Shown one piece after another: positions 4,985-26,249 of a stretch of DNA of 64,000 nt; position 1 is the stretch's first letter; each line of letters begins with the position of its first letter. The DNA comes from Neiella marina (GTDB lineage Bacteria > Pseudomonadota > Gammaproteobacteria > Enterobacterales > Neiellaceae), in contig NZ_NGNS01000001.1 of NCBI RefSeq assembly GCF_002165625.1, positions 186,001 through 250,000 on the forward strand. Direction: 5' to 3'. The notes under the pieces were generated by a model that was not told where the DNA came from, ran no database searches, and saw nothing but the letters and a program-made list of their open reading frames with translations. A program made the position numbers and the translations under genes.

Positions 4985-5023
4985 AAATCAGAATCGTCTT
5001 TAAATGAGTTAGTTAGTTCTCAC

Positions 5024-5083
5024 TTCCCAACTCAAAAAAAGCGAATATTTTCTTCTGTACTAAGCTTCCTCTGTAGTTGGGAA
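5024..5083 (+). repeat. Inverted repeat in the MCP leader
   Basis: TTCCCAACT (5024-5032) and AGTTGGGAA (5075-5083) are perfect 9-bp complements separated by 42 bp, ending about 60 bp before the MCP ATG. In RNA this would form a long hairpin in the 5' leader; in DNA the arms could be paired operator half-sites. Function unknown. Confidence 0.5.
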
Positions 5084-5144
5084 AGTATGGAAATTGCGTC
5101 AGATTGGATGACGTCGGGATGTATTGGTTGAAAGGCAATAAATC

Positions 5145-7145
5145 ATGAATATGACGTTTATTCAGCGCACCTATTTGAGCTTTGGCGTGCTGGTATTTAT
5201 TTTGCTCCTGACAGGCTTGGTAAACTATTACTTGCTGTCGCGCTTCAATGACGGGGTTGAGCAGATTGCCCATGAGGAGATCCCAAGCCTCAAGTCCAGT
5301 TATAGCTTTTACAGCTTGCTGCAAACCAGCAATCAAATTGTGTCCGACGCACTGGCTGAGAACACCGTAGAAATGCTGGAACAGTCAAAAGCATCCTATG
5401 AATTAGCAAGCGAACAAGCAGAGCAAGAACTCGAACGCCTATCCCAGCAAGGCAGCACTGAACTACTTACCAGCTTACAAACCACCCTTCCTGAGTTGCA
5501 GCGCATCTCGGAACTGATGCTCAGCGAACATGGCAAGCTCATTGAATTGGAGAAAAAGAACTCTGAGGACATTCGCGGCATGCTGTTGGAAATGGCGCGT
5601 TTTAAGCAGCACCTGCTTGCTAAGAGCTATGCCATCGCCGATGACTACGTGCGTTGGAGTTTCAATGAACTGCTCAACCCGTTCGAGCAATCTGAAGTGT
5701 TGCTGATGAAAGCGATCAACGCCGCCAATCAAAAATCCATTACCTTCTCAGGTGGTCGAATTGAAAAACTAGCGCCAGTGCTCGATGAGAAATTCGGTAA
5801 CTTGATTGATGAAATGGCCATTTATCAGGATTCTAGAACCGACTACAGAGCTGAATTCGAACCCAGATGGCAAGCGATAAAAAAAGACATTGTCTTGTCA
5901 CAGGGTGGTGCATTTGGTCAGTTTCAGGCACTGGTACAAATGCGCGATAAAAATACTGAGCACAAACAACGCTTGTATGAGCTGCAACAACAAGCTGGTG
6001 ATGCTGTGAAGCAAATGATTGCCGAAGCAGATGGTCGAGTTGACAAGGCCTCTGCCAGTGTTGCTAAGCAATACGTGCGTGGTATCAGCATCACTGTTAT
6101 TGCTGTGCTTGCTTCGGTCGCTATTGGTTTGCTAGTCGGTTTCCGTATTAGTCAGCTGCTTCGTAGAGCTGTTCGCAATGTTGGCGGCGCGCTGGAAGAT
6201 CTTAGCAGTGGCGACATGACGGCTCGCTCAAGCTACACCGCCGCTGACGAATTTGGTGAGATTGGCGATGATGTGAACCAGCTCGCTGAGCGCATGCAGC
6301 GTTCATTGAGTGAAATATCCTCAACGTCTGCTCGCCTGAGTGAATTAGCACAAAGCAATAGCCACCTTTGTACCGACGCTGAGCAGCGGCAGATGAGCCA
6401 GTCTCAAAACATCGCCATGCTAGCGACCGCGATGGTAGAAATGGAGGCGTCATTTGCCGAAGTAGCACAATTGGCCTGTGACACCGCTGAACAAGTCGCC
6501 AGCGTTGAGAAATCGGCGACTTTGGGTAGCGAAATCATGGCTCAAACAATCCAGAGCACCAATGTGGTATCCGGTGAGCTGGAAAGTAGCGTGGAACGTA
6601 TTCGAGATGTCGAGCACTACAGTGAACAGATCGGCGATATTTTGAGTGTCATTCGCGGTGTCGCTGAACAAACCAACTTGCTCGCACTGAACGCTGCAAT
6701 TGAGGCCGCTAGGGCCGGAGAACAAGGTCGCGGTTTTGCCGTTGTCGCTGATGAGGTCCGCCACTTGGCGCAACGTACTGCTGAATCAACCACTGAAATT
6801 CAGCAACGTATCGAGAACCTACAGCAAAGTATCGACGGCGCCGGTAAGGTAGTCCGGGAGGCGCAAAACAGTATGGAGCGCAATCTTGAGAAAGTGTCCG
6901 ACGCCGACAGCGCCATGGGCACTATTCAAGCAGCGGTTTCTCAGATCACCGATATGGCGGCACAGATCAGCGCTGCCACTGAAGAGCAGCGTGTCACCTC
7001 GCAAGATATGACACGCACCGTCAATGAGGTCAGTGATACGGCCGACGCCAACTCACAATTAATCAGTCAAGTCAGCAATGCCAGTGAGCAGCAAGCCACC
7101 ATGGCAGAAGAGCAACAGCAATTGATATCTCATTACAAGGTTTAG
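5145..7145 (+). CDS. Methyl-accepting chemotaxis protein (666 aa)
   Basis: Classic transmembrane chemoreceptor: TM1 at about residues 10-30, a long periplasmic helical domain (about 31-310), TM2 at about 313-335, HAMP (about 335-390), then the cytoplasmic signalling hairpin. The hairpin tip ([20 protein letters not shown]) binds CheA/CheW. The ligand domain is rich in helices and Glu/Gln and has no Cache signature, so it may be a helical-bundle sensor; its ligand is unknown. No CheR-binding NWETF-type pentapeptide is seen at the C-terminus (ends HYKV). It is transcribed alone between crp and a bidirectional terminator. Regulation may involve the leader repeat noted above. Confidence 0.93.
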
Positions 7146-22624: not shown

Positions 22625-23434
22625 CTACGAGCGCCGCTGTTGCTCTGCCAATTGCGCTTTTAGCGCCAACAGCTCGCGATGCACATCGACAATGGTTGGT
22701 TCGCCAGCATGCTCAGCAGCATCTGCTTCCTTATTTTCTTGTTCGATAACATTGACCACGATACCGATCACCATGTTTAAGAAGGCAAATGCGGTTAGGC
22801 AAATAAACGACAAGAAATACATCCAACTCCAGCCATGAACTGTCATGGTTTCGTACATCACATCAGTCCAATCCTCGAACGTCATCACTCGGAACAAGGT
22901 CAGCAAGGAGATCGCAATATCACCCCATAATTCGCTGTTAATTGAAGCAAACACAGTAGTGCCAACCGCCGCATAGATATAGAAGATGACAAACATCATC
23001 AGCAACACATACCCCAGTTGCGGCAAGGCTTTGAGCAACGAGTTAATCAGCATTCTCAGCTCGGGGATGATGGACACCATACGCAACACTCGGAACACCC
23101 GTACCAAGCGAGCAATCAACGCCATATCGTTGTTGCCAACCGGTATCAGTGACAAAGTCACCACAAAGGTATCGAATAAGTTCCAACCGTTTTTGAAGAA
23201 ATCTCGCTTTCTTGGCTCACCAATGAACCTAATGGTAATTTCGATCAGGAAAAAAACAGTAACGCCCCAATCGAGAACCGATAAGCCAGTGTGAAGCCAG
23301 TTGGGTATATCGAAGGTTTTCACTCCGATCATTAGGGCAGAAAAGATAATTACGGCGATAACGAGCAGCTCGAACAGCTTGTTTTTCCGCAGCCGATCAA
23401 ACTTGCTTTGAATGGAGTCGAAGTGAGTAGTCAT
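22625..23434 (-). CDS. Voltage-gated-type ion channel (bacterial Nav/Cav family), atypical filter
   Basis: 269 aa single-domain six-helix channel, assembled as a tetramer. S1-S3 cover about residues 20-100. S4 has arginines at 109, 112, 115 and 118 spaced by three (RLVRVFRVLR), the voltage sensor. S5 is about 138-160, the pore helix and filter about 175-192, and S6 about 202-230. The filter reads TFEDWTD (185-191), unlike the TLESWSM of NavAb or NaChBac. Acidic residues at the second and last of the key positions match substitutions that make engineered NavAb Ca2+-selective, so calcium permeation is inferred. A short C-terminal coiled coil (about 228-266) fits the family's tetramerisation stalk. 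No partner gene is adjacent. Confidence 0.9.
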   Translation of the reverse strand: MTTHFDSIQSKFDRLRKNKLFELLVIAVIIFSALMIGVKTFDIPNWLHTGLSVLDWGVTVFFLIEITIRFIGEPRKRDFFKNGWNLFDTFVVTLSLIPVGNNDMALIARLVRVFRVLRMVSIIPELRMLINSLLKALPQLGYVLLMMFVIFYIYAAVGTTVFASINSELWGDIAISLLTLFRVMTFEDWTDVMYETMTVHGWSWMYFLSFICLTAFAFLNMVIGIVVNVIEQENKEADAAEHAGEPTIVDVHRELLALKAQLAEQQRRS

Positions 23435-23531: not shown

Positions 23532-24515
23532 TTAAATAAAGAGTTGTTGGATGGAATGCTTGTTGTGGTACATCAACTCATCGCCGGCGGCAAGAAGCGC
23601 ATCAACTGAGGGATGCTTCAGTGGGTCGTATTGCACGGCACCGCAGCTGAACTCAATATCGTAACCACGTTCACTCTCTGCATTATATGCTTTGATCGCA
23701 TCGGCAAACTTTTTCAGTACCGCCATTGCCACTTGTCGCCGGGTGTTGGTGAACAACACGACAAATTCATCACCGCCGATACGAGCAAACAAATCCGACT
23801 CACGAAAATTCTCACGCATTGCTTCAGCAAAACACTGCAAAGCCCGATCGCCTTCGGCATGACCAAATGTATCGTTAATTTCTTTGAAGTGATCTAAATC
23901 GAAAAACACCAGCGTTGCGGGGATATGCTCACGGGCAAACATCTTCATGCTGTGTTGAGCCAAGGTTGCGAAGCCTCGGCGATTACTTATGCCAGTCAGT
24001 TCATCGGTGGTCGCCAGCTGAAAAGCCGACAATTCACGCTCGACCATGGACGCCAAGTCGACCAATGTTTCCATTTCTTCGGTACAAAAATCTCGCGGCG
24101 CAGTGTCAATGATACACAGCGTACCCAATCGACCGCCGGACACCGAACGCAATGGACAACCGGCATAGAAGCGAATACCGGGCTCACCAGTCACCAGAGG
24201 ATTATCAAAAAATCGTTCATCCTTGAGTGCATCCGGAACCAGCAAGACTTTAGAATCTAAAATCGCATGGCCACAAAACGATACATCTCGGGAAGTTTCT
24301 GAGGCATCGAGACCAACGCAAGACTTAAACCACTGACGATCATCATCAACTAATGACACCACGGCGATAGGCACATCAAACACCCGCTTTGCCATTCGGG
24401 TTACTCGATCAAATCGTTCTTCATTGGGAGTATCAAGCACATCCAAAGAGCGCAGCTCAACTAACCTAGCGGCTTCGTTATCTGGCCTATCGGGTTTCTT
24501 CACATGATTCTCCAA
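23532..24515 (-). CDS. GAF-GGDEF diguanylate cyclase
   Basis: 327 aa, cytoplasmic. An N-terminal GAF domain (about 20-160, with SLVDDDRQWFKS and VSFCGHAI typical of GAF domains fused to GGDEF) precedes the cyclase (about 165-325). The active site is RIGGDEF and the inhibitory I-site RESD lies five residues before it, so feedback inhibition by c-di-GMP is likely. The product c-di-GMP controls the switch between swimming and surface life. The GAF ligand is unknown. Monocistronic between the ion channel and the LysR gene. Confidence 0.93.
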   Translation of the reverse strand: MENHVKKPDRPDNEAARLVELRSLDVLDTPNEERFDRVTRMAKRVFDVPIAVVSLVDDDRQWFKSCVGLDASETSRDVSFCGHAILDSKVLLVPDALKDERFFDNPLVTGEPGIRFYAGCPLRSVSGGRLGTLCIIDTAPRDFCTEEMETLVDLASMVERELSAFQLATTDELTGISNRRGFATLAQHSMKMFAREHIPATLVFFDLDHFKEINDTFGHAEGDRALQCFAEAMRENFRESDLFARIGGDEFVVLFTNTRRQVAMAVLKKFADAIKAYNAESERGYDIEFSCGAVQYDPLKHPSVDALLAAGDELMYHNKHSIQQLFI

Positions 24516-24592: not shown

Positions 24593-25486
24593 TTACGAAG
24601 CGCCAACAAAACAGTCGTCAATGGCATTGGCAAGTGCTATCACCGCGGGATTAGCTCGGTCTTGCAAGGCCAGCACTCGATTGACGATTAATGACTTCTT
24701 AGCATCAAACGCTAATGGCACTTCGATAAGCTCACCGCTTTGCAACTCCCGATGAATGTGTGATGTGGGAACGAAGATAAAACCCAGCCCTTGCTTGACG
24801 ATATCTATCGCCGTACCGAAATAGGTCACGGTCCAGCGCTGCTCCGCTTGCAGCCAGCCTGCATCGACTGGTCGCCGGACGCCTGAATCTCGGATCACCA
24901 ACTGGCGATACTGGCGCAGATCGTCAGAACTTACCAAATGGTCGACTGTAGCCAATGGGTGTTGGGGGCTAACCGCACAAATCATCGAGCTGGTGGCCAC
25001 CGGCTTGCCGAGAAATCCTGGTAATACCCGGACCGCATACACTAAGTCCGCTTGTCGTTCGAGCAACGCATCATCCGTTGCCGACAGGGTCGTTTCTAAG
25101 ATTCGAATTCGGGTCTCTGGGTGGGCTTTGGAAAACTTGGCAATGCCAGCGACGACGGGTGCCATGTCAACTACCGCATCAACCGCAATAGTCACTTCAG
25201 CCTGCCAGCCAGATGCGAGGTAGCCAGCATGTTGCTCCAACGCTTGTGCCTGCGCCAGCAAATTGCTCGCATGGCGATAGAGAACTTGGCCGGCTTCGGT
25301 CAACACCGCTTTGCGACCTTGCTGGGTCAGCGCTGGCGTCGGTAGTTGCTGCTCCATCTTACTGATGATGTAGCTAACTGCGGATTGGCTTTTGTTGAGC
25401 TTTTCGGCCGCCTTGGCAAAAGAGCCACAATCAATCACAGCTTGAAAGGTCGCCCATTGCTCGAGTGAAATGCGTGGCATTGTCAT
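24593..25486 (-). CDS. LysR-family transcriptional regulator
   Basis: 297 aa from the ATG at 25486, which overlaps the stop of the upstream DUF1461 gene as ATGA; a longer in-frame start at 25576 would lie deep inside that gene and adds a Cys-rich stretch without similarity. The N-terminal winged HTH (LEQWATFQAVIDCGSFAKAA, about 7-66) and a periplasmic-binding-like effector domain are typical. The effector is unknown. The two-gene unit is divergent from azoR-pirin, and LysR genes near quinone or azo reductases often control them, so that pair is the first candidate target. Confidence 0.92.
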   Translation of the reverse strand: MTMPRISLEQWATFQAVIDCGSFAKAAEKLNKSQSAVSYIISKMEQQLPTPALTQQGRKAVLTEAGQVLYRHASNLLAQAQALEQHAGYLASGWQAEVTIAVDAVVDMAPVVAGIAKFSKAHPETRIRILETTLSATDDALLERQADLVYAVRVLPGFLGKPVATSSMICAVSPQHPLATVDHLVSSDDLRQYRQLVIRDSGVRRPVDAGWLQAEQRWTVTYFGTAIDIVKQGLGFIFVPTSHIHRELQSGELIEVPLAFDAKKSLIVNRVLALQDRANPAVIALANAIDDCFVGAS

Positions 25487-26208
25487 AGTGGTACCATCCG
25501 ACTTTGTCGTCGCTGAAGTCCAACCAACACAGCAACAAACGTTAACAAAGCAAAACCACCTATTTGCAGTGCCCAAATAGCAAATAGATCCGGGGCTTTG
25601 AGTAAGGTCGTCATGAGTGACTCATAGTATTCAAAGTACCATTGATGTTGGACCGGAAAAGCACGTTGATGAAACTCGGTATAGAGTGCATCAAAACCAA
25701 CCACCAGATAGCTCACAACAAAAGCCAACCCAGCAGCTAGACCGATGCCTCGTTGCATTAGAACACTTGGCAGCCGTAATCGCGATCGCCAATAAAGAAA
25801 CAATAGAATGAAGGTGACAGGCGTGCTTAGCCACCAAAGCACATTGAAGTCTCGCAGCAACAAGTGGACATCTCGCAAGTGCGTGACTTCACTATCGGTC
25901 AGCAATGGCTTACTACCGCTGTTGGTGGTGTATCGAATCTCGGCAAGCTGATCGGGCTGGTCATGCACGGCATCATTGATCTGCTCAAACAGGGCAAGAT
26001 GTTGATGCTTTACCGTGAGGTGAAAATCTTTGCGCTTCATCTTGTTGAGCGGCGCATAGCGCTTGATATGGGCGTCGATGGCAATGACCTCATACCAAAA
26101 CGGGTAGCCGAACTGAACTAACTTGTTGACTTGGTAACTGACGCCACAAGTGACAATCAAAAGTGACAGACACATCACCAGCCAAACAAATGTCCTAACA
26201 ATAGTCAC
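25483..26208 (-). CDS. DUF1461 integral membrane protein
   Basis: 241 aa if the GTG at 26208 is used; the longest frame begins at a TTG at 26247 without a ribosome site. Four or five membrane segments with an extracytoplasmic loop. The LLTDSEVTHLRDVHLLLRD segment before the second helix and the QWYFEYYESLMTTLLKAPD block are typical of DUF1461/TIGR01906 proteins, whose role is unknown. The stop overlaps the LysR start (ATGA), implying translational coupling. A palindrome (26238-26249) sits just upstream in the divergent promoter region. Confidence 0.78.
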   Translation of the reverse strand: MTIVRTFVWLVMCLSLLIVTCGVSYQVNKLVQFGYPFWYEVIAIDAHIKRYAPLNKMKRKDFHLTVKHQHLALFEQINDAVHDQPDQLAEIRYTTNSGSKPLLTDSEVTHLRDVHLLLRDFNVLWWLSTPVTFILLFLYWRSRLRLPSVLMQRGIGLAAGLAFVVSYLVVGFDALYTEFHQRAFPVQHQWYFEYYESLMTTLLKAPDLFAIWALQIGGFALLTFVAVLVGLQRRQSRMVPL

Positions 26209-26237
26209 CCAACATAATCCATCAATAATTTCGATTA

Positions 26238-26249
26238 ATTTGAGCAAAT
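26238..26249. promoter_or_regulatory. Palindrome in the LysR/azoR divergent control region
   Basis: ATTTGAGCAAAT, two 5-bp inverted arms around AG. It lies between the DUF1461-LysR unit and azoR and could be an operator. LysR sites often follow T-N11-A, which this fits only loosely. Confidence 0.3.

Follow-up and report, generated by a model that had tools for sequence, protein, structure and literature searches.

Which ion passes through a bacterial voltage-gated channel whose selectivity filter, TFEDWTD, carries three acidic residues? The question is raised by a gene in a 64,000-nucleotide stretch of the Neiella marina genome (hereafter the window). The initial annotation noted that the filter places Asp at key positions of the kind that turned engineered NavAb into a calcium channel. 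Below we consider the gene and its product, the clade to which it belongs, and the behavior of those relatives for which currents have been recorded.

The channel gene and its product

The channel is encoded by an intact ORF on the minus strand, with an ATG start at 23434 and a stop codon at 22625-22627 (Table 1); the plus strand across the same interval is interrupted by many stop codons. The gene is present as a single copy in the 4.25-Mb genome. Its nearest relatives show 96% (G002), 86% (Neiella holothuriorum, L003/L031) and 80% (G004) identity with an identical filter in all of them, and the retention of gene and filter over this range argues that the ORF does not occur by chance.

That the product is a bacterial voltage-gated channel, as first annotated, is borne out by its domain match, fold and gating charges. 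The protein matches Pfam Ion_trans (PF00520) over residues 19-237 with an E-value of 2.5e-46. The AlphaFold monomer model comprises S1-S6, P1, P2 and a C-terminal helix, and possesses the 6TM and P-loop architecture of a single-domain channel. The best Foldseek matches of this model are NavRh, NavMs and NaChBac, and VIA-align gives Z scores of about 14 to NavAb, CavAb and NaChBac. Filter geometry was not taken from the model, a monomer without a pore in which residues 181-190 have a mean pLDDT of 62. In the alignment the four S4 arginines correspond to R99, R102, R105 and R108 of NavAb, while countercharges E65 and D88, the filter Trp (W189) and the S6 Asn (N220) also align with NavAb; all eight residues are invariant in the 122 TFEDWTD proteins discussed below. 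The protein thus has arginines at every third residue of S4, together with acidic countercharges, as is characteristic of a voltage sensor. By analogy with other BacNavs, the C-terminal helix probably forms the coiled coil of a tetramer.

Table 1. Coordinates of the channel gene, its structural elements and the adjacent gene in the window
Feature	Coordinates	Strand	Basis
Single-domain (6TM) voltage-gated cation channel, 269 aa	22625..23434	-	ORF, Pfam, AlphaFold (mean pLDDT 81)
S2, residues 45-72, countercharge E65	23219..23302	-	Model and alignment
S3, residues 83-96, countercharge D88	23147..23188	-	Model and alignment
S4 voltage sensor, residues 102-121, R109, R112, R115, R118	23072..23131	-	Model helix and NavAb alignment
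S4-S5 linker and S5, residues 124-162	22949..23065	-	Model
P1 pore helix (model 167-179) and residues up to R182	22889..22936	-	Model and alignment
Selectivity filter T185-F-E-D-W-T-D191 (TFEDWTD)	22862..22882	-	Translation and alignment; low local model confidence
P2 helix, directly after filter; filter-S6 one residue shorter than NavAb	22838..22861	-	Model and spacing
S6, residues 203-241, conserved N220	22712..22828	-	Model and alignment
Probable coiled-coil helix at C-terminus, residues 248-268	22631..22693	-	Model helix, pLDDT about 90
GAF-GGDEF diguanylate cyclase, upstream of channel, 97 bp gap	23532..24515	-	Neighbour only

All three Neiella genomes have the channel and the GAF-GGDEF gene side by side, but the next genus does not; an operon of the two was therefore rejected, the arrangement being genus-specific. 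Across 80 loci no conserved neighbour genes were found, except for one syntenic block in about 13-16 loci, and promoter and terminator scans gave results at or below chance. With no conserved partner, the genomic context is uninformative on the physiological role. Elsewhere in the window (25483-26247, minus strand) lies a gene for a membrane protein whose sequence weakly matches that of Lit (lipoprotein intramolecular transacylase, PF07314), with an E-value of 8e-9.

The charged filter and its clade

Compared with TLESWSM of NavAb, the pore sequence TFEDWTD is, as the initial annotation held, more acidic than that of NavAb or NaChBac. The impression that it is unusual was not borne out; within a large clade it is the usual filter. 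Among 194 distinct proteins, a set which includes NavAb, NavRh and the window protein and is weighted towards relatives of the latter, 122 (window included) carry TFEDWTD, 31 TLEDWTD and 21 TLESWSM, the remainder being rarer types. A scan of genome contigs, which yielded near gammaproteobacterial relatives only, retained 75 named loci from largely marine genera: 74 of these have TFEDWTD and one, from a Vibrio, TFESWTS. Canonical TLESWSM channels are also present in the same order, and even in the same family (L018-L021).

Multiple alignment of BacNav filters had been suggested as the means of placing this clade. The maximum-likelihood tree (61 rows) resolves three sets, namely the canonical channels with NavAb, a TLEDWTD/TLEGW set, and the TFEDWTD channels with NavRh, the last being a long branch whose exact place is unsure. 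The branch round the TFEDWTD and NavRh set has a support of 100/99, rising to 100/100 with the filter columns masked; the long or divergent rows L013, L022, L114, L183, L190 and L211 were excluded from the careful tree. The TFEDWTD clade is gammaproteobacterial, well supported, and lies outside the canonical NavAb-like branch.

Judged by sequence, the charged-filter channels would be of the type that PMC7041947 describes as ancestor-like BacNavs (AnclNavs). The correspondence is drawn from the Teredinibacter turnerae and Halomonas elongata members named in that study, since a Teredinibacter sp. channel (L084), from a congener of T. turnerae, sits in the window's clade with the filter TFEDWTD. 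Like an AnclNav, the window channel has a TLESW-like filter with more acidic residues, three in all, and a position outside the canonical branch; it has neither the TLESW filter nor the NavAb branch of a canonical BacNav, and at filter position 4, where a CavMr-like Ca2+ channel has Gly, it has Asp188. The window channel thus adds a member to a large family of channels that has been described before.

The clade also differs from the canonical channels in its pore spacing. Counting from the filter Thr to the S6 Asn gives 35 residues for the window channel, for NavRh and for 152 of the 154 channels with Asp at both positions 4 and 7, and 36 for each of the 21 TLESWSM channels. NavRh, like human Nav1.2, is known to be without the residue of NavAb Gly182 (PMC6152994). 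MAFFT sets D191 opposite this Gly182 and not Met181, with a gap that can be moved by one, so that the exact register is unsettled. The acidic pattern pointed out in the initial annotation stands, but its equivalence with CavAb is therefore only approximate for the last Asp: in a clade one residue shorter after the filter, D191 need not overlay CavAb Asp181, and the precedent of engineered NavAb/CavAb does not carry over cleanly. Furthermore, the P1 position R182 is Arg in all 154 Asp4/Asp7 channels and Gln in canonical NavAb-type channels. The missing residue and the P1 arginine could explain why NavAb engineering rules fail in the charged-filter group.

Positions 4 and 7 tend to change in concert. 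In nine of nine independent contrasts between Asp and non-Asp at position 4, one of which is the canonical group itself, position 7 changes likewise (sign test p 0.0039; tree without filter columns); the sample includes variants that were sought with a pattern excluding Asp at position 4. With more rows and the filter columns kept, the two change together in 7-8 of 8 contrasts. A Gly4/Asp7 type does exist, in CavMr and in L013 (TLEGWTD), the latter a long branch that was omitted from the careful tree and that counts against the coupling in the quick tree. In its safe form the observation is that Ser4 never occurs together with Asp7 among the rows tested. Both the paired gain or loss of Asp4 and Asp7 and the missing post-filter residue may be additions to PMC7041947. 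Natural comparison pairs are available, with TFEDWTD channels beside TFESWTS or TFESWAT relatives; one sister pair consists of G017/L007 (TFEDWTD) and Vibrio sp. 10N.261.55.A7/L052 (TFESWTS). Within the charged-filter clade, the TFESWAT channels L122, L123 and L198 show every element of the canonical pore at once: Gln replaces R182, Ser stands at position 4, Asp is missing from position 7, and the additional residue after the filter is present. To judge by these residues, they might represent a natural reversion to the canonical pore by convergence, or else recombinants.

Phage-borne and other unusual copies

Full-length channels of the window's clade were found on two metagenomic phage contigs from IMG/VR. 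In G858 (97,072 bp) the channel (4986-5816; filter TFEDWTD) lies beside a phage-type DNA polymerase and an exonuclease. In G859 (26,986 bp) the channel (5001-5852) has the filter TFDNWSE, and the contig carries a T4-type clamp loader, a SegE-type GIY-YIG endonuclease and a match to a baseplate-wedge/tail-fibre connector. The two proteins are 65% identical and are sisters in the tree (100/99). Scanning viral contigs with the window protein revealed no close relatives; it was an alignment query that found the phage copies. In G857 (39,736 bp; L111/L250) the final ORF, which lies past the tail-tip gene of a prophage of HK97 type, encodes a TFEDWTD channel; it is either a phage cargo gene or part of the host flank, and may be host DNA. 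Terminase_6N was not found in four IMG/VR records, and was also missed in the clear prophage G857, where the terminase was recognized by PHROGs, so that this search is non-discriminating. Phage-encoded voltage-gated cation channels would be surprising; a literature search of limited coverage found no report of phage channels of this type, which is weak evidence.

Three further arrangements were seen. L114 (G860, 395-2410) is a protein of 672 amino acids with a channel domain (TLEGWAE) from residue 414, and Pfam matches the channel part only; its long N-terminal portion appears to be either fused or out-read. Contig G236:C18 carries one channel from each of two charged-filter clades, separated by about 2.5 kb (L163, 57423-58202; L172, 60681-61472). 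Tandem channels that score as canonical occur in G089, G126 and G150.

Ion selectivity and comparison with known systems

We know of no TFEDWTD channel with a measured current; what is available comes from relatives. In Shimomura et al. 2020 (PMC7041947), NavPp, the filter of which is TLEDWTD, tracked the Na+ reversal potential with a PCa/PNa of 0.308; K+ and Cs+ passed less readily than Na+, and Ca2+ on the outside of the cell blocked the channel. The filters TLEDWSD and TLEDWAD, which confer Ca2+ selectivity on NavAb and NaChBac, produced no Ca2+ permeability when put into NavPp. What decides Ca2+ selectivity, in NavPp as in CavMr, is instead a Gly at position 4: D4G renders NavPp Ca2+-selective, and G4D in CavMr has the opposite effect (PMC7041947). 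In the same study, homologues from H. elongata and T. turnerae with similar filters gave no detectable current in patch clamp. NavRh is likewise non-functional in mammalian or insect cells, and its filter grafted into NaChBac is Na+-selective (PMC4225499). In NavAb, Phe in place of Leu at filter position 2 (L176F) produced no Ca2+ block (PMC10349818).

The gene, fold, gating charges, filter, clade and the post-filter loop shortened by one residue are direct observations on the window channel. By analogy with its measured relatives, we consider it fairly likely to be an AnclNav-type Na+ channel, opened by depolarization, with modest selectivity and a low-affinity block by Ca2+. Four subunits would form one pore, which the four-arginine S4 would open on depolarization. 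The Glu-Asp...Asp ring would bind cations strongly, letting Na+ pass with modest selectivity, and external Ca2+ would permeate slightly and block, as in NavPp. Such a channel might serve Na+ entry or an electrical response of the marine cell. Some facts count against this explanation: the two homologues with similar filters gave no current, the window channel has Phe at position 2 where NavPp has Leu, and in NavAb this exchange caused no Ca2+ block. By its Leu2, NavPp is closer in filter to the TLEDWTD clade than to the one with Phe2.

The initial annotation suggested that the channel may conduct Ca2+ or be poorly selective. The former has become the less likely part, since the same charge pattern in NavPp goes with a preference for Na+ and with block by Ca2+, and CavAb-type filters placed in NavPp do not admit Ca2+ (PMC7041947). 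A native Ca2+-selective channel, in which the Glu, Asp and Asp rings work as in engineered CavAb (TLEDWSD), would account for the shared charge pattern and for a phmmer similarity to Cav domains, which is however common to other BacNav-type proteins. Given the effect of G4D in CavMr and the residue missing after the filter, on account of which D191 may not occupy the place of CavAb D181, we regard such a channel as improbable. We are equally reserved about its extension to the whole clade, namely that TFEDWTD channels constitute a widespread Ca2+-conducting family of marine gammaproteobacteria, distinct from CavMr (Gly4) and engineered CavAb, using paired Asp4/Asp7 rings on a shorter post-filter loop; were it true, lineages that have lost both Asp, such as the TFESWTS-bearing Vibrio, would have reverted to Na+ in nature. 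Ion selectivity cannot be read from the count of acidic filter residues alone, because one and the same charge pattern makes a Ca2+ channel of NavAb and leaves NavPp a Ca2+-blocked Na+ channel.

Poor selectivity, the other half of the suggestion, is possible. A non-selective example is the diatom channel OsEUKCATA1 (TLDAWAD), whose permeability profile resembles those of the NaChBac LEDWAS and LEDWAD mutants (PMC8002053), and the selectivity of NavPp is itself modest. A voltage-gated channel passing Na+, K+ and Ca2+ alike, in the manner of NsvBa or diatom EukCatA, is nonetheless unlikely here: the non-selectivity of NsvBa accompanied Asp at position 3 and Gly at a further position (PMC4225499), whereas the window channel keeps Glu at position 3, and NavPp discriminates against K+ and Cs+. 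The silence of the H. elongata, T. turnerae and NavRh homologues in heterologous cells would be explained if channels of this kind were not activated by voltage alone, or needed a host partner or lipid. This we consider very unlikely, as none of the 122 TFEDWTD proteins departs from the set of gating charges and countercharges and no conserved neighbouring partner gene was found.

Among known systems, NavPp of Plesiocystis pacifica shares with the window channel the single domain and Glu3, Asp4 and Asp7, with one filter residue different. CavMr of Meiothermus ruber (TLEGWVD), a naturally occurring Ca2+ channel, belongs to the same broad group according to PMC7041947 and is acidic at position 7, as is the window channel, but has at position 4 the Gly that determines Ca2+ selectivity in place of Asp. 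The closest bacterial relative with a solved structure is NavRh (Rickettsiales HIMB114, PDB 4dxw, TLSSWET; about 45% identity), which falls on the same side of the 100/99 branch and also has one residue fewer after the filter; unlike the window channel, it lacks Glu3, Asp4 and Asp7 and has Gln at the R182 position. The canonical BacNavs NavAb (TLESWSM; 28% identity), NaChBac (TLESWAS) and NavMs have the fold, voltage sensor and filter Trp in common with the window channel, but form a separate branch with Gln at R182, an extra post-filter residue and a single acidic filter residue. CavAb, engineered from NavAb, has by count the same set of acidic positions as the window channel; it is an artificial channel with a different backbone and post-filter length.
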